From an uncultured Bacteroidia bacterium (GTDB taxonomy: Bacteria > Bacteroidota > Bacteroidia > Bacteroidales > Prolixibacteraceae): 64,000 nucleotides of DNA. Under the pieces are notes generated by a model that worked only from the letters and a program-made list of their open reading frames with translations, did no database searches and had not been told where the DNA came from. A program made the translations under genes and the position numbers. Shown piece after piece: positions 39,769-53,645 of this stretch. The stretch's first letter is position 1, and each line of letters starts with the position of its first letter. Where the stretch lies: assembly GCA_903923905.1 (NCBI GenBank), contig CAIXZH010000119.1, positions 1-64,000 on the forward strand, read 5' to 3'.

Positions 39769-41925
39769 CTATTTCTTTGGCTGAAAATCGGGATGCCCAC
39801 ATTGCCACATCACAAATGCAAACTGATCGGCGAAATTGGCAAAGGTTACATTCTTATCTTCTGTGAAATGGCCATTGTCATAGTTTACTTTCATTAGAAC
39901 AGGTTTTCCCGAGGTGGTAGCATTTTGCAATGCAGCTGCGAATTTTCCTGGTTCCCAGGCCACTACACGTGGATCATTCCAACCTCCGACACAGATAACC
40001 GCCGGATATTTTGTACCTTTCTTAACGTGTTGCACTCCGTCCATTTCGTATAATGCCTTGCATTCGACACTATCCTTTACCGTTCCAAATTCGGGAATAT
40101 TTACAGGGCCGTTGGCACCGAATTCCATTCTCATAGCATTTGCGCATCCCACATTACAAATTGCCGCTGCGAATAAGTCTGGGCGCTCAGTTATGGATCT
40201 GGATATCAGTATTCCACCGGCACTGGTTCCTGTGCCGGCTAGTTTTTGCGGTGAGGTATAACCTTTTGCAACCAGGTATTCGGCACAACTAATAAAATCT
40301 TTCCATGTGTTGGGCTTGGTCGTTTTGTATCCTCCCTTATACCATTCTTCCCCCTTTTCGCTGCCTCCGCGTATATGAGGTATTGCGATTATAACACCTT
40401 TTACAGCGAGTGCATTTTCACGGGCACTAAAATAAGGTACTGCACTATAGCCATACGCCCCATAACCGTCGAGCAAACAGGCATTTTTACCATCCATTTT
40501 AATTCCTTTCCTGAAAATAATCGAAAGAGGAATTAAAGCCCCGTCATGCCCTTTTACCTCAACTTCCTGCACCATCAAATCTTTATATGCAGCCGGATAA
40601 ACAGCGGGTTTATTGAAACTGCTTGGTGTAAGGGCATCAGTGGCTGCATCATAATTGAATTCAGTATATGGTCTGTTCCAGGAAGTAATTCCGACATTGC
40701 AATTATTTGTTTTGGTATTTATACAGTACAACCCGATCGTACCGGAATAGGGTAGCTTCACGCTGGTTGTGACTCTTGTTTTGAGATTGTATTTTGACAA
40801 ATGGTTGTTAATGCCATCGCTGTGAACTATTAAGAGATAATCTTTTGAATTGATGAAATATTCCAGGGTCTTATCCTGTTTCTCGGCAGCAATAGTTATG
40901 GCTTTTGACCAGTCAGGGTGTTTGAGGTTGGTACTGATGAGCTTATAGTTTTTAGCGTTTTTATGAGTTATTGCAAATACATCGTCCCCTATCGCCGTGA
41001 ACCCGCGAACCAACATATCGGAAGCAGTACATAAAGGCTTCCATTGAATTTTTGTGGTGCCAAGTTGTTCAATCGGCACATAATATTGAATCAATTCCGG
41101 CTGAACACTTCCAACTCCCGAGAAGAGGTAATTTCTGGAGTCTTCACTTAAGAATACATAAGGATAGACACTTGGGGCAATTTTTAATTCGGGATAACTT
41201 CCATTGCTAAAAAAATCGGCATCATTGCTTGTCGCACTTCCCACGAAATGAAGTTTTGTTTTGGAATTCAGCCTTGACTCCGGATCTTTGTTGTCAGCAG
41301 ATTTTATCCACATATAGAAGAACCCTTTGTTGTCGAATGTCCAATTCATCACGCCTGCGGTGGGATAGATTGAATCGTTAAGGAATTTCTTAGTCTCAAC
41401 ATCCATTACCTTAATAGTGGAAACTTCAGCTCCTTGTTCAGAATATCCAATTGCAATTTTTTTACCGTCATAGCTGGGTATTGCCGATTCTAAAGTGAGG
41501 GTTTTGCCTTTTATGTAAGTTTTTGGGTCAAACAGGAGTGATTCCTTCCCATTTATCCCTTGTCTAAAGTAAAGCTTTCCCACATTTTCTCCGGGTAAGG
41601 TTTTACGATAAAAGATCCTGCCGTTTTCATAGATGATTGATCCTATTCTTGGTGGCTGAGCTTTGTCGAGCTTTTTCCATTCCGCAATCAGCTCATCTCT
41701 TCCATTTAATTTATTAAGAATGGAATTGGTATACTCCGCCTGTTGTTTAAACCAGGTTACCACTTCGGGTTTTTCAATCGATTCAAGCCATCGGTAGGGG
41801 TCATTATAAGTAACCCCAAAATAAGTGTCACTGGCATCTACAGTTTTGGTAACAGGCAAAGTTGGCTGCCCAAAAGATGCCAAATAAAGACTTAAAGTAA
41901 TTCCTAAAGTAATAATTTTCTTCAT
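39769..41925 (-). CDS. Prolyl oligopeptidase family serine peptidase (S9)
   Basis: DPYRWLE, GTGTSAGGILISRSI, GGWNDPRVVAWEPGKF, NYDNGHF. Confidence 0.92.
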   Translation of the reverse strand: MKKIITLGITLSLYLASFGQPTLPVTKTVDASDTYFGVTYNDPYRWLESIEKPEVVTWFKQQAEYTNSILNKLNGRDELIAEWKKLDKAQPPRIGSIIYENGRIFYRKTLPGENVGKLYFRQGINGKESLLFDPKTYIKGKTLTLESAIPSYDGKKIAIGYSEQGAEVSTIKVMDVETKKFLNDSIYPTAGVMNWTFDNKGFFYMWIKSADNKDPESRLNSKTKLHFVGSATSNDADFFSNGSYPELKIAPSVYPYVFLSEDSRNYLFSGVGSVQPELIQYYVPIEQLGTTKIQWKPLCTASDMLVRGFTAIGDDVFAITHKNAKNYKLISTNLKHPDWSKAITIAAEKQDKTLEYFINSKDYLLIVHSDGINNHLSKYNLKTRVTTSVKLPYSGTIGLYCINTKTNNCNVGITSWNRPYTEFNYDAATDALTPSSFNKPAVYPAAYKDLMVQEVEVKGHDGALIPLSIIFRKGIKMDGKNACLLDGYGAYGYSAVPYFSARENALAVKGVIIAIPHIRGGSEKGEEWYKGGYKTTKPNTWKDFISCAEYLVAKGYTSPQKLAGTGTSAGGILISRSITERPDLFAAAICNVGCANAMRMEFGANGPVNIPEFGTVKDSVECKALYEMDGVQHVKKGTKYPAVICVGGWNDPRVVAWEPGKFAAALQNATTSGKPVLMKVNYDNGHFTEDKNVTFANFADQFAFVMWQCGHPDFQPKK

Positions 41926-42472
41926 GGTAAATTAAGATTAAATTTAATTCAAACGGATAACTTATTTAGTTCCCTGCGTCGAAGGCATTATTTTAATTTG
42001 AACCAATCCCAACATACGGGAATTTAATTACCAGCTCATAATTAATCATATCTGCCGCTGAAACCCTTAATTAGTCAATTATAATATTCATAAACACTTA
42101 GTATAGAATAATTGTTTTAATTTTCAATAATTCTTCAGTCAATAAACTAAAGAACACTTTTACAGGGCTTTCCGGGGGTTTTAATATTTAATATCACTTC
42201 TTTACCCTGATTCAAAACCATTCTCAATTTCCCCGGATGGTTATCAAAAAACATCTTCAATTTAATTCATTAACCTTAAACATTAGTAAATCGTTAAAAT
42301 AAATATCGAATTGCATGAAATAATCTCAAATTGCTTACGATTTTATTTTGTTTTAATTATTTTATTTGTAGTTTTGCCGCGGAGTTTAGTCTGAAGCATA
42401 AACATAAACTATTTCTGCTGAACAAAAATTAAATTTCAATTGTTAAGTAATTATTTTTGCATTATAGTCAAA

Positions 42473-42547
42473 ATGAAAAATATATTTTCACATAGCCTTC
42501 TACTAGTTGTCATTCTAATTCTCGTCGATATCGACAGAGGAAGGTGA
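42473..42547 (+). CDS. Branched-chain amino acid leader peptide MKNIFSHSLLLVVILILVDIDRGR
   Basis: 24-codon ORF, absent from the ORF track, with Leu/Val/Ile run LLLVVILILVDI, followed by attenuator hairpins and the ilv-leu cluster. Confidence 0.82.
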   Translation: MKNIFSHSLLLVVILILVDIDRGR

Positions 42548-42571
42548 TCTATTTGTATGCTAAGACATATG

Positions 42572-42605
42572 AAAGCCTTTCTCGAAATGAGAAAGGCTTT
42601 TTTTT
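42572..42605 (+). terminator. Attenuator terminator of the ilv-leu operon
   Basis: AAAGCCTTTCTC gaaat GAGAAAGGCTTT perfect 12-bp stem + T8. Confidence 0.9.
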
Positions 42606-42631
42606 AAAATGAAATTTTAAGAACTTGAAAT

Positions 42632-44464
42632 ATGAAGTTTGAACTGAGAAGCGGAACAACAACGAGTGGACGCCGCATGGCCGGAGCCAGAAGTTTATGG
42701 AGAGCCAACGGGATGAAGGAGGAGCATTTTGGTAAACCCTTAATTGCTGTTGTCAACTCATTTACCCAATTTGTTCCTGGCCATGCACATCTTCACGAAA
42801 TAGGCCAAATGGTCAAGAAACTTATTGAAGAGGAAGGTTGCTTTGCTGCAGAATTTAATACCATTGCAATTGATGACGGTATCGCCATGGGGCACGACGG
42901 AATGTTATACTCACTTCCTTCGCGCGACCTGATCGCCGATAGCGTTGAATATATGATCAATGGTCATAAGGCGGATGCGATGATTTGCATCTCAAATTGC
43001 GATAAAATTACCCCGGGCATGCTGATGGCAGCCATGCGGTTAAATATTCCCTGCATCTTTGTATCCGGTGGGCCTATGGAAGCTGGCGTGGTTGCCGGGA
43101 AAAAATACGATCTGGTTGATGCAATGGTCATGGCTGCAGATCCTTCAGTAGATGAGAGTCTGCTCTCAAAAGTAGAGCAGGAGGCTTGTCCAACCTGTGG
43201 TTCGTGTTCGGGCATGTTTACCGCTAATTCAATGAACTGTCTGACTGAGGCGTTGGGACTCTCTCTTCCAGGAAATGGCACAGTTGTTGCGACCCACTTA
43301 AACCGGAAAAAACTGTTTGAGAAAGCCGCTAAACGATTGGTGGAGATCACCTTGGATTACTATGAAAATGGAAACGAACAGGTGTTACCACGAAGTATCG
43401 CTTCGAGAGCAGCCTTCATGAATGCGATGACCTTAGATATTGCCATGGGTGGATCAACGAATACGGTTTTGCATTTACTTGCTGTGGCACATGAGGCTGG
43501 CGTAGACTTTACCATGCAGGATATAGACGCCCTTTCCCGAAAGGTCCCCTGTATTTGCAAGGTCTCCCCAAGTTCACATTACCATATTCAGGATGTGAAC
43601 CGCGCCGGTGGAATTATGGGAATTCTGGGAGAACTTGAAAGGGGCGGATTATTAAACGCTTCAGTTTCACGGGTAACTGAATCAACACTTGGTCAGGCTA
43701 TTAAGACATGGGACATACTCCGCTCAACCGCTGATCAGGATGCCCGTCAATTGTATGCCTCCGCTCCGGGGAATTTAGGTCGCAACCTGATATTGGGATC
43801 CCAGGATACCTCCTATGCTGAATTGGACACGGATCGTCAGAAAGGTTGTATACGCGATATTGAACATGCCTATACCAAAGAGGGTGGACTTGCAATTCTG
43901 TATGGTAATATTGCCCGCCAGGGATGTATTGTAAAAACTGCCGGTGTAGATCCTTCCGTTTTCAGTTTTAAGGGTGTAGCCCGGGTTTTTGAGTCACAGG
44001 ATGATGCATGTGAAGGAATTCTCAAGCGTGAAGTTAAGGCGGGAGAAGTGGTGATTATCCGCTACGAAGGGCCCAAAGGCGGACCGGGAATGCAGGAGAT
44101 GCTATATCCGACATCCTACCTGAAGGCGTCAAAACTTGATAAGGTTTGCGCTTTATTAACAGATGGCCGTTTCTCAGGAGGAACCTCAGGCCTTTCAATA
44201 GGACATGTTTCACCCGAAGCTGCCGCTGGAGGTGAAATTGCACTGGTTGAAAACGGGGACCTGATCGAAATAGATATTCCACTACGAAGAATCGAACTGA
44301 TGATTTCGGATCAGGAACTTGGGTTCCGAAAAAAAGCGCAGGAATCACGCGGGAAGATGGCCTATCAACCAACGAACAGAAACAGGGTAATCAGTAAGGC
44401 TTTAAAAGCATATGCAAGCCTGGTTGCCTCTGCAGATAAGGGAGCAGTAAGAATTATTGACTAA
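42632..44464 (+). CDS. ilvD: Dihydroxy-acid dehydratase
   Basis: SCGACP-type Cys motifs ([57 protein letters not shown]). Confidence 0.97.
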
Positions 44465-44480
44465 TTTAATTATTTGACTT

Positions 44481-46223
44481 ATGACATCTTTAACAAACGA
44501 CCAAGTATTAGACCAGGAGTCGATTGAAATAACGGGTTCTGAAGCTGTTATCCGATCTTTGATCGCCGAAGGTGTTGATACCATCTTTGGCTATCCGGGT
44601 GGTGCAATTATGCCAGTATATGATGCCCTTTATGATTACCGGCATATCCTCAGACATGTGTTGACCCGTCACGAACAGGGTGCAGTCCATGCCGCGCAGG
44701 GCTATGCCCGGGTTTCAGGCAAGGTTGGTGTCTGTGTGGCAACCTCCGGACCAGGTGCAACGAACCTGATTACCGGGATTGCCGATGCACTGATTGATTC
44801 GACCCCTTTGGTTTGTATAACCGGGCAGGTGGTTTCGGGTTTACTCGGAACTGATGCATTCCAGGAATCTGATGTAATCGGAATTACCATGCCGGTAACC
44901 AAATGGAATTACCAGATTACCTGTGCCGAGGAAATACCAGAGGCTATTGCGCGGGCTTTTTACATTGCATTAAGTGGCCGTCCGGGACCAGTTGTTCTGG
45001 ATATAACCAAAGATGCCCAGTTTGCGAAATTAAAATACTCTTATGCCAAATGCAATAGGATCCGCTCTTATGTTCCTGAACATCCGGCTGATAAATTGCT
45101 GCTAAAGAAAGCATCCGATTTAATTAATAGTGCACAGAAGCCATTTCTGCTTTATGGCCAGGGTGTAATATTGTCAGGAGGCGAAAAGGAACTGATCAGC
45201 TTCCTTGAGAAAACCGGAATACCTGCCGCCGGGACTTTGCTTGGAATAGGTGCAATTCCTACAGACCATCCCCTGAATATGGGAATGTTGGGAATGCATG
45301 GAAATTACGGACCGAATATCAAGACAAACGAATGTGATGTATTGATTGCAGTTGGAATGCGGTTTGATGACCGGGTTACCGGAAGTACCAAAACTTACGC
45401 CAAGCAGGCAAAAATAATCCATATTGAAATTGATCCGGCAGAGATCGATAAAAATATTAAGACGGATGTTGCCCTGATCGGAGATGCAAAACATACCCTT
45501 AGATTACTCTCTACACTCGTAAATGAAAATAGGCATTCCGATTGGCTGGCAGAGTTTAAGGCGGCTGAAGTTATTGAAAAACAAAAGGTTATAAATAATG
45601 ATCTGGCTCCAAAAAAGCCTGGACTAACCATGGCCGAAGTAGTTCGGATGGTATCGGATCTTACTGACAATAAGGCTGTTGTAATTACGGATGTAGGCCA
45701 GAACCAAATGGCTGCTGCCCGCTATTCAAAATTTGAGTCATCACGGAGTTGGGTTACTTCCGGTGGCTTAGGAACCATGGGTTTTGGTTTACCGGCTGCA
45801 ATGGGTGCTAAATTTGGTGCCCCTGACCGTCAGGTTGTAGTCTTTACCGGTGATGGTGGCATGCAGATGACCATTCAGGAGCTTGGAACAATCGCACAGG
45901 AGAAACTAGCCGTAAAAATTGTTATTTTGAACAATCATTTTCTGGGAATGGTAAGGCAATGGCAGGAGCTCTTCTTTGAAAAACGTTATTCGTTTACCGA
46001 GATCCTAAGCCCTGATTTTGTAAAGGTTGCAGATGCCTACGGTATTCCCGGAAATGTTGTTCACCATCGAAATGAACTCGCTGGCGCTATGAAAAAAATG
46101 TTTGACTATGATGGCCCCTACCTTTTGGAGGTGATGATTGAGAAAGAAGACAATATCTTTCCAATGGTTCCGGCAGGAAAATCAGTTTCCGAAATCATAC
46201 TCAGTTCCGATGAACTGAAGTAA
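44481..46223 (+). CDS. ilvB: Acetolactate synthase large subunit
   Basis: [45 protein letters not shown]. Confidence 0.96.
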
Positions 46224-46258
46224 GCTTTCTATTTTGGAGAAATTTAAAACTTAAAAAG

Positions 46259-46825
46259 ATGAAACAGGAATATATTATCACAGCCTACAGCGAAAACCAT
46301 ATCGGTTTGCTGAACCGGATCACCATCATTTTCACCCGACGGAAGGTAAATATCGAAAGTCTGACCGTTTCTGAATCTGCCCTCAAGGGAATCAGTAAAT
46401 TTACCATTGTTGTCAACGAGGAAAAAGAAAAAGTGGTTAATATTGTCAAACAGATCGACAAACAGATTGAAGTTCTGAAAGCTTTTTATTATACCAACGA
46501 TGAGATGATTTTTCAGGAGATCGCCTTATACAAGGTTCCAACCTTAGCTTTAATGGAGAGTGACCAGATCGAAAAACTGATCAGGCAGCACAATGCAAGG
46601 ATACTTGAGATTACCCACGAATATACTGTAATCGAGAAGACCGGTCACAAAGAGGAAACACAGGAACTTTTTGAAGGACTTGCTCCATTTGGTGTCCTGC
46701 AGTTTATTCGGTCGGGAAGAGTGGCAATTACCCGTTCTCCAATCGAGAAATTGTCAGAGTTTCTCAAAGAGCGCGATGCCCTTTTCGAAAAACTGGAATT
46801 AAAGAAAGCATTAAGATCATTATAA
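46259..46825 (+). CDS. ilvN: Acetolactate synthase small subunit
   Basis: ACT domain ENHIGLLNRITIIFTRRKVNIESLTVS. Confidence 0.92.
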   Translation: MKQEYIITAYSENHIGLLNRITIIFTRRKVNIESLTVSESALKGISKFTIVVNEEKEKVVNIVKQIDKQIEVLKAFYYTNDEMIFQEIALYKVPTLALMESDQIEKLIRQHNARILEITHEYTVIEKTGHKEETQELFEGLAPFGVLQFIRSGRVAITRSPIEKLSEFLKERDALFEKLELKKALRSL

Positions 46826-46867
46826 ATATTGAATCACAGGGATTTGTAAATTAAACAAAAATTTAAA

Positions 46868-47914
46868 ATGGCAAGAATTAATTTTGGCGGAACAGATGAA
46901 AACGTTGTTACACGTGAAGAATTTCCATTGGCTAAAGCCCAGGATGTACTCAAAAACGAAACGATCGCAATTATAGGGTATGGTGTTCAGGGGCCTGGTC
47001 AATCATTGAATTTAAAAGATAACGGATTTAATGTCATTATCGGTCAGCGTAAAGGTTCCAAGACATGGGATAAAGCCGTTGCTGACGGTTGGGTTCCAGG
47101 AGAGACTCTTTTCGAAATAGAAGAGGCCTGCCAACGTGGTACCATCATTCAGTATCTACTTTCTGATGCAGGCCAGATTACCCTTTGGCCTACTATCAAG
47201 AAACATCTGACCACAGGAAAAGCACTTTATTTTTCTCATGGTTTTGGAATCACCTACAAGGAAAGAACTGGTATTATCCCACCGGCTGACGTTGATGTTA
47301 TCCTTGTGGCTCCTAAGGGATCGGGTACCAGCCTGCGCAGAATGTTTCTTCAGGGACGCGGCCTGAATTCGAGTTATGCCATCTTTCAGGATGCAACAGG
47401 ACATGCATTTGAAAGGGTTGTAGCTTTGGGAATCGGCGTTGGATCAGGTTATCTTTTTGAGACAGATTTTAAACGTGAGGTATTCTCCGATCTGACTGGT
47501 GAACGCGGAACGCTGATGGGTGCCATTCAGGGGATTTTTGCAGCTCAGTATGAAGTATTACGGAGCAACGGACATTCACCATCTGAAGCATTCAATGAAA
47601 CGGTAGAGGAACTGACCCAGAGTTTAATGCCTTTAGTGGCTGAAAACGGTATGGACTGGATGTATGCCAACTGTTCTACAACCGCTCAACGTGGAGCTCT
47701 TGATTGGTGGAAGAAATTCCGCGATGCCAGTAAACCGGTATTCGAGGAGTTGTACAAGGAGGTTGCAGCCGGAAACGAAGCGCAACGTTCAATTGATTCA
47801 AACAGCAAGGAAGATTATCGTGAGAAACTGGAGGTTGAACTGACTGAACTGCGCGAATCTGAAATGTGGAGGGCTGGAGCAACGGTGCGTAAATTGCGCC
47901 CCGAGAATAATTAA
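46868..47914 (+). CDS. ilvC: Ketol-acid reductoisomerase
   Basis: [65 protein letters not shown]. Confidence 0.96.
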
Positions 47915-47928
47915 AAAAACTTAGAATT

Positions 47929-49449
47929 ATGGATAATCGCGTATATATTTTCGATACAACACTACGGGACGGTGAACAGGTGCCCGGGTGCCAGTTGAAC
48001 ACTATCGAAAAGGTCGAAGTTGCAAAAGTTTTAGAGCAGTTGGGTGTTGATGTTATTGAAGCCGGGTTTCCCATCTCAAGTCCCGGTGACTTTAAGTCAG
48101 TGGTTGAAATCTCCAAGGCAGTAACCTGGCCGATCATTTGCGCGCTTACCCGTGCAGTTGAAAAAGATATAGATGTGGCTGCCGAATCGCTGAAATATGC
48201 GAAACGCGGTCGCATCCATACCGGTATCGGAACTTCTCCCTATCATATCCAGTACAAACTGAACTCCAACCCGGAGGAGATCCTGGCAAGAGCGGTAGCT
48301 GCAGTAAAGTATGCCAAGAAATATGTGGAAGATGTTGAATTTTACGCCGAAGATGCCGGTCGTTCGGACAATGTCTACCTGGCAAGAGTCATCGAAGCGG
48401 TCATCAAGGCCGGAGCAACCGTAGTGAACATTCCCGATACAACAGGTTATTGTTTACCAAGTGATTATGGAGCAAAGATCAGGTTTCTGATGGAAAATGT
48501 CTCAAATATTGACAAGGCGATCATTTCAACACACTGCCATAACGATTTGGGAATGGCTACTGCCAACTCAATCGCGGGGGTGATGAACGGTGCACGTCAG
48601 ATCGAAGTTACAATTAACGGAATAGGCGAACGTGCAGGTAACACAGCTCTCGAAGAGGTGGTCATGATCATGCGTTCACACAAGGAACTTGATTTGCATA
48701 CCAATATTAATGCAAAAAATATCTATAAGACCAGCCGTTTGGTTTCGAGCCTGATGAATATGCCGGTTCAGGCCAATAAAGCTATTGTGGGGCGCAATGC
48801 CTTCTCACACTCAAGCGGAATCCATCAGGATGGCGTGCTGAAGAACCGTGAGAATTACGAAATCATCGATCCGGTTGAAGTTGGAATCAGTGAATCTTCG
48901 ATAGTTTTAACCGCCAGAAGTGGTCGTGCCGCGTTGAAACACCGGTTGGATTTGCTGGGGATTACCCTTGAAAAGGAAAAACTGGACGAAGTTTATGAGG
49001 AGTTCCTGCTCTTAGCCGATAAAAAGAAAGACATCAAGGAAGATGACCTTTTAGTGTTGGTCGGCGAACGCGGAGGTTTGGGTGAACGCCGCATCAAACT
49101 CGACTTTTTGCAGGTCGTTACCGGAAAGAACCTTGTTCCGATGGCAACAGTAAGACTGGATATTGCAGGTGAGAAATTTTCTGCAACCGAATCCGGGAAT
49201 GGCCCTGTGGATGCAGCAATCACAGCCGTAAAAAGCATTATTCACCGTAAGGTAACCCTTCAGGAATTCCTGATCCAGGCTATCAATAAGGGGAGTGATG
49301 ATATCGGCAAGGTACATATGCAGGTAGAATATGACGAAAATATTTACAATGGTTTTGGTGCAAACACCGATATCATTACGGCTTCTGTTGAGGCATTTAT
49401 TGATGCAATTAATAAAATTGGCAATGCAGAAAAGGCTGCCGCTAAATGA
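47929..49449 (+). CDS. leuA: 2-isopropylmalate synthase
   Basis: [56 protein letters not shown], LeuA dimer domain. Confidence 0.95.
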
Positions 49450-49500
49450 ACAATAGCCAATTTAAAATTGTAATATTCAGTAATCTTAATAATTATCATT

Positions 49501-50898
49501 TTGGAACCAAAAACGCTTTTTGATAAAATCTGGGACGCACATGTTGTTAAACAGGTGAAGGATGGACCCGATGTATTGTATATTGACAGGCACTTTATTC
49601 ACGAAGTTACCAGTCCTGTCGCTTTCCTGGGTTTGAAAAACCGGGGGATGAAAGTTCTCCGGCCACAAAATACAATAGCTACTCCGGACCACAATGTGCC
49701 TACCATTGAGCAGCATCTTCCGATCAAAGAAGAACTTTCGCGTCTTCAGGTTGAGGCGCTTAAGGAAAATTGTGCTGAAAACGGGATCGAATTATACGGA
49801 CTGGATCACAAATATCATGGCATCGTCCACATCATTGGTCCTGAGTTAGGGATTACCCAGCCCGGAATGACCATTGTTTGCGGCGACAGCCACACCTCTA
49901 CCCATGGAGCTTTTGGTTCTATTGCCTTTGGTATTGGAACCAGCGAAGTGGAGATGGTTTTTGCCAGTCAGTGTATCCTTCAGCCCAAACCCAAAAAAAT
50001 GAGGATCTCAGTCGAAGGGGAATTAGGCAAGGATGTTACCGCAAAAGATATTGCCCTTTATGTGATTGCCCGGATTTCAACCTCAGGTGGTACAGGACAT
50101 TTCGTTGAATTTGCCGGTTCTGCTATCCGCAGTCTTACCATGGAAGGTCGTATGACACTTTGCAATATGAGCATCGAATGTGGTGCCCGCGGTGGTATGA
50201 TTGCACCTGATGAGACTACTTTTGCCTATATCCAGGGGAGAGAATTTGCACCTAAGGGAAGTGATTGGGATCAAAAACTGGCCCAATGGAAACAGTTGAA
50301 ATCAGATGACCATGCTAAATTTGATTCGGAATTCCAATTTGATGCTGCCAATATTGAACCGATGATCACTTATGGGACAAATCCCGGGATGGGAATTGGC
50401 GTAAGCGGTACAATTCCAACCGGGAAAAATCTTACCGGCTCTGATCTGATTACTTTTACCAAGTCGTTGGAGTATATGGGTCTGAACCCAGGGGACAAGA
50501 TTAAAGGTAAAAAGGTGGATTATGTTTTTATCGGAAGTTGCACCAACGGACGGATTGAGGATTTCAGACTTTTTGCAAATTTCGTAAAGGGGAAACAAAA
50601 AGCAGATTCTGTAACTGCCTGGATCGTTCCCGGCTCGAAGAAAGTTGAACAACAAATCAGGGAAGAAGGAATTGTTGAAATTCTGGAGGCTGCCGGGTTT
50701 ACCCTGCGTCAGCCGGGTTGCTCTGCCTGTCTGGCAATGAATGAGGACAAGATTCCTGAAGGAAAGTATGCAGTTTCCACTTCGAACCGAAACTTTGAAG
50801 GACGTCAGGGACCCGGTGCCCGCACGATGCTTGCAAGTCCCCTGATGGTTGCGGCAGCTGCCGTTACAGGAGTTGTCTCCGATCCTAGAGATTTTTGA
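49501..50898 (+). CDS. leuC: 3-isopropylmalate dehydratase large subunit (TTG start)
   Basis: [50 protein letters not shown]; no in-frame upstream ATG, TTG at 49501. Confidence 0.95.
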
Positions 50899-50926
50899 TT
50901 AATAACGATTTTCAAATTTAGAAGTA

Positions 50927-51514
50927 ATGTCTATAGAAAAATTCCAGAAACTGGTCAGCACTGTTGTTCCGCTTCCTATCGAGAATGTGGACACCGACCA
51001 GATCATCCCCGCACGGTTTCTTAAAGCTGTAGAGCGGAAAGGATTTGGAGATAACCTTTTCAGAGACTGGCGATACAAAAAGGATGGTACACCAAACCCC
51101 GATTTTGTGATGAACAATCCCAGCTTTTCGGGTCAGATTTTAGTGGGCGGAAAGAATTTTGGAAGTGGCTCGAGCCGCGAACATGCTGCCTGGGCAATAT
51201 ATGATGCCGGGTTCAGAGTGGTTGTTTCGAGCTTCTTTGCGGATATCTTCAAAAGTAATGTATTGAATTGCGGTTTATTACCGGTTCAGGTCTCTGATGA
51301 TTTTCTCACAGACATTTTCGAAACGGTTGAGGCTGACCCTAGAGCCCAATTTGAAGTTGATCTTGAATTGCAAACGATACGTAATCTTAAATCCGGAGTT
51401 AGTGTCAAATTTGATATTAATGCGTATAAAAAAGAGTGCCTGCTTAACGGCTATGATGACATCGATTTTTTGTTGAGTTTGAAAGAAGAGATCATCGCAT
51501 TTGAAAAGGCATAA
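50927..51514 (+). CDS. leuD: 3-isopropylmalate dehydratase small subunit
   Basis: [38 protein letters not shown]. Confidence 0.95.
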
Positions 51515-51532
51515 TGAACTTTAGGTTCGACC

Positions 51533-53074
51533 TTGGAAATTAACAAAGAGCATATGATTTATATAATGGATACCACCCTGAGAGATGGTGAACAAACCTC
51601 GGGAGTCTCCTTTTCCGAACTGGAAAAGCTAAATATTGCAAAAATTCTTCTCGAAGAGATTCGGATTGATTATTTAGAAGTAGCATCTGCTCGTGTTTCC
51701 GAAGGTGAATTGAGAGGCGCAAAAAAAGTACTGGATTGGGCTAAAGAGGCCGGTTTTCTTGATCGTATTGAGATCCTCGGTTTCGTTGATGGCACCAAAT
51801 CACTTGAATGGATCTCAAATGCCGGTGGAAAGGTGATGAATCTTCTCGCAAAAGGTTCATTGCGTCATGTCACCCAACAACTTAAGAAAACCCCGGAGGA
51901 ACATCTTTCCGGAATAAGGGGCTCGCTGCAACTGGCAGAAAGCATGGGGATCAGGGTAAATATTTACCTCGAGGACTGGTCGAACGGGATGCGGAATTCA
52001 CCCGAATATGTCCATTTTATGCTTGATGGACTTCGCAAGGAGAAGATCGGGCGCATTATGTTGCCCGATACACTTGGAATTCTAAATCCTCTGGAGACTT
52101 TCGAATTCTGCTCTTCTATGATTCGCAAATTTCCGGATCTTCAGTTTGATTTTCATGCTCATAATGATTATGACCTGGCAGTTGCCAATGTAGACGCAGC
52201 TATACGTGCAGGAATAAAAACGGTTCATACAACTGTCAACGGGTTGGGTGAGCGTGCAGGTAATGCCCCGCTTTCCAGTGTGATCGCATTACTTAACGAC
52301 CAACTCAGGCTTCCGAATTCCATCAATGAGCGGAAACTAAGTCTGATAAGCCGAATTGTTGAGAACTTCTCGGGGATCCGGATTTCCGGAAATAAACCCA
52401 TCATCGGCGAAAATGTCTTCACCCAATGCAGTGGGATCCATGCTGACGGCGATAATAAAGATAATCTCTACTATAACGATTTGCTTCCCGAGCGATTTGG
52501 AAGAATCCGGAAATACGCACTCGGAAAGACTTCAGGTAAGGCGAACATCGCCAAGAACCTTGAGGATATGGGAATACGCCTCGATCCGGAAGACCTGGTA
52601 AGGGTAACCAATAAAGTGATCGAACTGGCGGATATGAAAGAGTCGGTCACTTCTGATGACCTTCCTTATATCCTTTCTGATGTCTTAAAGAATGAAGCGG
52701 TAAACGAGAAGATCCGGCTGCGGAATTATGCGATCGTTCATTCACTGGGACTTCGGCCAATGGCGACGGTTGCCATTGAAGTGGATGGCCTGTTTTTTGA
52801 AGAGGCTGCCTCCGGTGATGGTCAGTATGATGCTTTTATGAATGCCCTAAAACAGATTTATCATAAACAAAACAAACAGTTTCCGACACTCGTTGACTAT
52901 GTGGTGACCATTCCTCCGGGCGGTAAAACTGACGCCCTTGTTGAGACCCTCATTACCTGGGATATGGGGCGCGAATTTAAGACACGCGGCCTCGATCCCG
53001 ACCAGACAGCCGCCGCTATCAAGGCAACTATGAAAATGTTGAACATTATCGAAAATGAGAATCAGCTCTTCTAG
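51533..53074 (+). CDS. Second LeuA-like synthase, citramalate/2-isopropylmalate synthase family
   Basis: [66 protein letters not shown] start at 51533 or ATG 51554. Confidence 0.85.
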   Translation: MEINKEHMIYIMDTTLRDGEQTSGVSFSELEKLNIAKILLEEIRIDYLEVASARVSEGELRGAKKVLDWAKEAGFLDRIEILGFVDGTKSLEWISNAGGKVMNLLAKGSLRHVTQQLKKTPEEHLSGIRGSLQLAESMGIRVNIYLEDWSNGMRNSPEYVHFMLDGLRKEKIGRIMLPDTLGILNPLETFEFCSSMIRKFPDLQFDFHAHNDYDLAVANVDAAIRAGIKTVHTTVNGLGERAGNAPLSSVIALLNDQLRLPNSINERKLSLISRIVENFSGIRISGNKPIIGENVFTQCSGIHADGDNKDNLYYNDLLPERFGRIRKYALGKTSGKANIAKNLEDMGIRLDPEDLVRVTNKVIELADMKESVTSDDLPYILSDVLKNEAVNEKIRLRNYAIVHSLGLRPMATVAIEVDGLFFEEAASGDGQYDAFMNALKQIYHKQNKQFPTLVDYVVTIPPGGKTDALVETLITWDMGREFKTRGLDPDQTAAAIKATMKMLNIIENENQLF

Positions 53075-53294
53075 GTATGGGCTGCTGGCAACTAGCGGCT
53101 TCCAATTCGCAAAATGAGAGTTTCAGTCATTTACGATTAATAATTTCCTTCGCTGAAAATGCAGATTGACAAGACAATAATTTAGAAATTAATTTTGAAA
53201 TTGAGAGATTGAAAAAGGAAAAACAAGAGACTAAAACGCACTAATTTGATAATCACTTTTTAAGTAATTGTCAGCATGGTAATTAGACCCTTTT

Positions 53295-53435
53295 TGCCCG
53301 TAGGGCATCAATTTCAATAGAAAAATAATTCAAAGAAATGCCATTGTCCGTTAGGAAATTAACAGATAAACGGTTAATTCCCTACGTGAAATTCATTTTC
53401 AGATTGTAATTTTCTAAAGAAATTGATTTCATACG
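53295..53435. repeat. MITE-like nested palindromic element
   Basis: Outer arms 53307-53324 / 53410-53427 (ATCAATTTC..TAGAAAA / TTTTCTA..GAAATTGAT); inner arms 53352-53363 / 53373-53384. Confidence 0.6.
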
Positions 53436-53645
53436 GAGAAATTTAAACTATTTCTTTGCGTTTTTGTAGCTTAATGGCTATTTTTCTCGCAACAAAGCCA
53501 CAAGGGTAGTCAAATTAGTTTGTTAATTTAATATTTTTTGCCTACGGCACAATCTTAAGAAAAAAAATACGTAAAATAAATTAAGAATAAAAATATTAAA
53601 CAGTTTATCAGACATAAAACGAAAATTATAAATATCAATCTAAGA

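Follow-up and report, generated by a model that had tools for sequence, protein, structure and literature searches.

The DNA analysed here, a stretch of 64,000 nt from an uncultured member of the Prolixibacteraceae (hereafter the window), carries an eight-gene operon for branched-chain amino acid (BCAA) synthesis, in the order ilvD-ilvB-ilvN-ilvC-leuA-leuC-leuD-cimA. The first structural gene, ilvD, encodes dihydroxy-acid dehydratase (42632-44464, plus strand; NF009103, TIGR00110), and the seven others, up to a CimA-like gene, follow on the same strand at 44481-53074, as assigned by NCBIfam matches. For the CimA-like gene the best model is Leptospira CimA, with a score below the cut-off of that model. 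Given this gene set, the operon covers leucine and valine synthesis, with isoleucine probably made via citramalate. About 570 nt past the CimA-like gene lies leuB, again recognized by NCBIfam. The gap between the two (53075-53645) is AT-rich, no second attenuator was evident there on inspection by eye, and leuB may have its own promoter. On the other side of the operon, the upstream neighbour (39769-41925) is encoded on the minus strand. The region just before ilvD holds a short ORF and a hairpin, and these are the subject of what follows.

A short ORF dense in Leu, Val and Ile codons

The ORF, MKNIFSHSLLLVVILILVDIDRGR, occupies 42473-42547 of the plus strand and has 24 codons, starting with the ATG at 42473 and ending with the TGA at 42545-42547. 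All ten of its codons 9-18 (42497-42526), which read LLLVVILILV directly from the sequence, specify Leu, Val or Ile, and we refer to them as control codons. A BCAA-rich ORF of this length had been proposed in the original prediction; its coordinates are exact, and shuffling shows that it is more than a product of chance. In fact, of the window's 744 ATG-initiated ORFs with lengths of 12-36 codons, no other has ten such codons out of ten, and dinucleotide shuffles of 42400-42631 never produced its like in 20,000 attempts (nine out of ten was reached in 5). Low-GC sequence does yield some short ORFs rich in these residues, since six others in the window have at least 8/10, and one could thus imagine a chance ORF that happens to sit beside an ordinary terminator. 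The shuffles speak against such a coincidence, as do the conservation and covariation described below and the opposite orientation of the upstream neighbour, which leaves no plus-strand gene in need of a terminator; we give it practically no chance of being correct.

The choice of codons is also unusual. Four of the five Leu control codons are CTA or CTC, rare codons that together make up 15% of the Leu codons in the genes of the window (P = 0.002). Across the leaders of the family, CTC and CTA account for 58% of Leu codons and GTC for 56% of Val codons. This preference could come from constraints on base pairing, or it could make the leader sensitive to scarce tRNAs; either explanation would be possible.

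TAnnTTTG, which we take to be the -7 element of Bacteroidota promoters, recurs before the leaders. Of 114 leader ATGs, 73 have it in the preceding 60 nt, usually at a distance of 21-32 nt, against 4% in shuffled sequences. In the window, the matching element is TATTTTTG (42452-42459, plus strand), from which a transcript would be expected to start at about 42464-42467, some 8 nt before the leader ATG.

Two helices that exclude each other

Downstream of the ORF, the plus strand carries an intrinsic terminator at 42572-42605, identified by pairing, a terminator scan and compensatory changes. Its 12-bp stem pairs 42572-42583 with 42589-42600, and a tract of eight T residues follows at 42598-42605, confirming a hairpin and U-tract that had been placed here, ahead of ilvD, from the sequence alone. 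The scan found one terminator-like site, at these same coordinates; given a symmetrical stem flanked by T-rich tails on both sides, it was assigned to the minus strand. As the upstream neighbour lies on the minus strand, there is no adjacent plus-strand gene upstream whose transcript this hairpin would end. The RNA from 42460 to 42612 folds at -37.4 kcal/mol, compared with -25.8 kcal/mol for shuffled sequences (z = -3.4), and none of the 200 shuffles was as good; this is the folding check that the original prediction had called for.

That prediction had also laid out a textbook arrangement of four segments, at 42496-42500, 42537-42544, 42576-42583 and 42589-42596, and their sequences are as it described. 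With slightly extended arms, segment 1 (GCCUUCU, 42495-42501) can pair with 42539-42545 as a possible protector, segment 2 (GAGGAAGGU, 42537-42545) is the 5' arm of the antiterminator, and segment 3 (GCCUUUCUC, 42575-42583) is common to antiterminator and terminator. All three are on the plus strand; compensatory changes and a swap test define the second, and covariation in the alignment the third.

To what extent are these helices maintained by selection on pairing? In an alignment of 55 sequences, the terminator helix 3:4 is paired in 95% of cells and the antiterminator helix 2:3 in 95.9%. Changes on both sides of 3:4 were seen in 38 cells versus 9.3 in shuffles (0/500 shuffles as high) and extend to eight of the twelve stem pairs. 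For 2:3, there were 15 double changes versus 2.7 (again 0/500), and pairing became worse in every slid register; because the aligned sequences are related by descent, fewer independent events lie behind all these double changes than the counts suggest. Eight sequences carry a switched pair in both helices at once, in the columns of 42542, 42578 and 42594. A larger switch is seen in relatives whose terminator arm has changed from CCTTTCTC to CCATTCTC, where segment 2 switches correspondingly. When arms were swapped between the two classes, pairing of segment 2 of the CCATTCT class scored 21.5 when the arms were its own and 11.5 when they were the common CCTTTCTC arms, and in the converse test the CCTTTCTC class scored 19.4 with its own arms and 11.6 with those of the CCATTCT class. 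Antiterminator and terminator are thus mutually exclusive, and both covary.

The protector helix, which in the classical scheme keeps RNA that is not being translated in the terminated state, is another matter. It exists in the window sequence (-8.2 kcal/mol), and a good 1:2 helix is found in a few members of the genus. In the alignment of 55 sequences, which is least reliable around segment 1, no 1:2 covariation rose above that of the controls, and the pairing of leaders with segment 2 scored 12.3, little above the 11.3 of leaders with shuffled codons. We therefore take the conserved core to be three arms, 2-3-4. From the four-segment layout first drawn, the 2:3 and 3:4 pairings are upheld by covariation, and the 1:2 pairing, present here, is without comparative support.

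Where a ribosome would have to stall

The control codons stand at a nearly constant distance from the antiterminator: the last of them begins 18-22 nt before the GG core of segment 2 in 70 of the 86 distinct leaders compared. The position of the stop codon is variable and falls into two main groups, either upstream of the core inside UGAGAAAGG, or overlapping the core or just past it. The window leader is of the latter kind, which most leaders of its genus do not share.

To look at the consequences of this geometry, we folded the RNA with the nucleotides under a ribosome masked, assuming that the ribosome covers 13 nt past the first A-site base. On nascent RNA, a ribosome at any of codons 9-18 leaves 2:3 available, and a ribosome at codon 20 or at the stop codon does not. 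The run of control codons thus ends where stalling would stop working. At equilibrium, ribosome-free nascent RNA prefers 2:3, and the full-length RNA prefers 3:4 over 2:3 in every state. Because the terminator wins every full-length equilibrium state, the switch would have to operate kinetically, like that of comparable attenuators.

The leader across relatives

The original prediction had suggested a comparative search, and this search recovered leaders rich in Leu, Ile and Val, each with a terminator, before ilvD in 85 of 88 Prolixibacteraceae genomes, counting loci with 180 nt or more of sequence ahead of ilvD; the peptide is usually not the one seen in the window. Many loci in other Bacteroidales families have them too, including those of the Bacteroides, Alistipes and Tannerella types. 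The peptides differ between genera (e.g. MKLFSTYILVVLVVILGFSGKG and MLSKVTNIILIVIIILIDSM), so that it is the codon content that is kept rather than the peptide. Within the genus, gaps inside the ORF are whole codons.

These patterns bear on the possibility that the ORF encodes a small hydrophobic, perhaps membrane-bound, protein with a function of its own, its transcript being ended by the terminator or passing it at a constant partial rate. The peptide does have a hydrophobic stretch, and the variant control codons within the genus are enriched for synonymous changes (9 of 13, versus 32% expected; P = 0.007). Between genera, however, the peptide is free to vary as long as the share of Leu, Ile and Val, the spacing from segment 2 and the antiterminator itself are conserved, and a fixed terminator would leave the 2:3 covariation unexplained. 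Moreover, loci of Desulfobulbaceae and related bacteria, whose IlvD is ~70% identical, have no comparable leader (at most 5/10 Leu/Ile/Val codons). A small protein is therefore a very unlikely account of the ORF.

Outside the Bacteroidales but in the same class, IlvD is of a distant type with about 35% identity, and a leader is present at only some loci; in sampling across the phylum, most matches were to another IlvD type. Four loci of the same class with a distant IlvD (L189, L192, L193 and L194) carry Leu/Ile/Val-rich leaders, e.g. MQISIIITSVIVVNVYSTYASGMV, with terminators. These leaders suggest that such control arose there independently or goes back further in time.

A proposed mechanism

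The conserved ORF, the exclusive and covarying helices, their spacing from the control codons and the operon that they precede all point the same way. So do the synonymous bias of the variant control codons within the genus and the presence of His and Trp leaders in the same genome. The promoter element, the whole-codon gaps and the synonymous bias are indirect signs of transcription and translation of the leader. We infer that the leader is transcribed, translated and able to stall ribosomes, and that the element is very probably a ribosome-mediated transcription attenuator regulated by the charging of Leu, Val and Ile tRNAs. RNA polymerase would start at about 42465 and a ribosome would then translate the leader peptide. 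When BCAAs are plentiful, this ribosome would get to the stop codon (42545) and cover segment 2, allowing 3:4 to form and to stop transcription at the U-tract. With BCAAs scarce, it would stall within codons 9-18, leaving segment 2 free to pair with segment 3; with 2:3 formed there would be no terminator, and the genes from ilvD to cimA would be transcribed. A mixed Leu/Val/Ile leader fits an operon making all three amino acids. Leader-peptide attenuation of the ilv/leu operon, as first proposed for this locus, is thus strongly supported by the conserved leaders, the covarying terminator and antiterminator, and the geometry of the stall codons.

Could another ligand operate the same terminator? 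A metabolite riboswitch or a protein-binding leader, T-box-like or PyrR-like, would also use two alternative structures, and a weak PyrR match was found below threshold (27.7 bits, with a cut-off of 54). At gathering scores, no Rfam family matches in the window. Between the ORF and the terminator there is no conserved block resembling an aptamer, the spacer being variable in length and sequence, and the run of Leu, Val and Ile codons would be left without explanation. We consider such a device extremely improbable and retain ribosome-mediated attenuation. At relaxed scores, Rfam returned Phe_leader and Thr_leader besides PyrR, all far below cut-off, and we read these matches as a generic resemblance between hairpins.

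Probable attenuators in series

In 15 relatives, two BCAA leader-terminator units stand in series upstream of ilvD. At 12 of these 15 loci (L019, L020, L021, L028, L141, L143, L147, L149, L155, L160, L165 and L169), the upstream unit has arms of the CCATTCT type and the downstream unit arms of the CCTTTCT type. No promoter element was found between the units at any of the 15 loci, and the units pair better with their own arms than across (17.5 versus 10.0). Loci of the Marinifilum/Labilibaculum type (L068, L069 and L078) have two Leu/Ile/Val leaders in series with other arm sequences and weakly defined antiterminators. At L017, L132 and L134, the intact unit is preceded by a CCATTCTC hairpin whose T-run is interrupted and which has no leader ORF, possibly a decayed upstream attenuator.

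The genome from which the window comes also has leaders of other kinds. Ahead of trpE (L215:1130-1450, on contig 115) it encodes two successive Trp leader peptides, MHTFKSIWLWWGNTFLC and MKQNSQNILVWRWQEYYLQT, and a terminator comes after each. Counting the other loci of the genus (L216-L229), 13 of the 15 trp loci have both units, with hardly any variation in the first peptide. Before hisG (L214, reverse strand), there is a His leader, MTKLSIYTGHHLHHLP, that contains four His codons, along with a region resembling a terminator, GGCCTTTTTT.

On these grounds, we envision that Bacteroidales may use a three-arm form of attenuation, without a protector helix and often with the stop codon inside the antiterminator, that can be stacked on one transcript as two units whose arms do not pair with each other (CCATTCTC then CCTTTCTC). 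Such stacking would gate ilv/leu, and through the Trp leaders also trp, by starvation in several stages, a proposal that in our judgement stands about an even chance of being right. Tandem attenuators are known from mgtCBR of Salmonella (PMC3641672), and among the papers searched we found no description of amino-acid leader units in series in Bacteroidota.

Relation to known systems

The ilvD leader provides a concrete and testable regulatory element for BCAA synthesis in Bacteroidales, one that is matched by no Rfam family and is too short for ordinary gene calls. Bacteroidales are a major gut and environmental order in which the control of amino-acid synthesis is little described, and the series arrangement in relatives raises the question of multi-stage attenuation. 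Comparative predictions of amino-acid attenuators were reportedly made by Vitreschak and colleagues in 2004, who are said to mention Bacteroidetes/Chlorobi, and by Lopatovskaya and colleagues in 2010.

Within the phylum, the Bacteroid-trp RNA (RF01692; Weinberg 2010, PMC2864571) has been catalogued as a cis-regulatory RNA of Bacteroidetes, and its name ties it to trp genes; like our element it leads an amino-acid operon, though a different one. Its covariance model has no match in the genome studied here (E <= 0.001) and none in the window. In Flavobacterium psychrophilum, leader peptides at operons for amino-acid biosynthesis are proposed from mapped transcripts on what are called 'strong clues' (PMC9723704); these are elements of the same kind in the same phylum, from a different order and with no ilv element named in the main text. 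In Bacteroides thetaiotaomicron, long 5' UTRs contain short ORFs resembling leader peptides (PMC7366714). The original prediction could cite no such attenuation as characterized in this lineage. For the ilv element this stands as far as the papers searched go, none of which describes a Bacteroidales ilvD leader; for the phylum it has to be qualified, as precedents exist (PMC2864571, PMC9723704).

The mechanism itself is already known, and with Bacteroidota precedents at hand the ilvD leader adds another case.

Ribosome-mediated attenuation is the classical mode of control by leader peptides in enterobacteria, at ilvGMEDA, ilvBN and leuABCD. The window element shares with these a BCAA-rich leader ORF, competing antiterminator and terminator, the same pathway and rare Leu control codons, and has no evident sequence relationship with them. 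It differs in that a single leader of mixed codons precedes an operon combining ilv, leu and cimA genes, in its unsupported 1:2 protector, in a stop codon that often lies within the antiterminator arm UGAGAAAGG and in its promoter of the Bacteroidota type.
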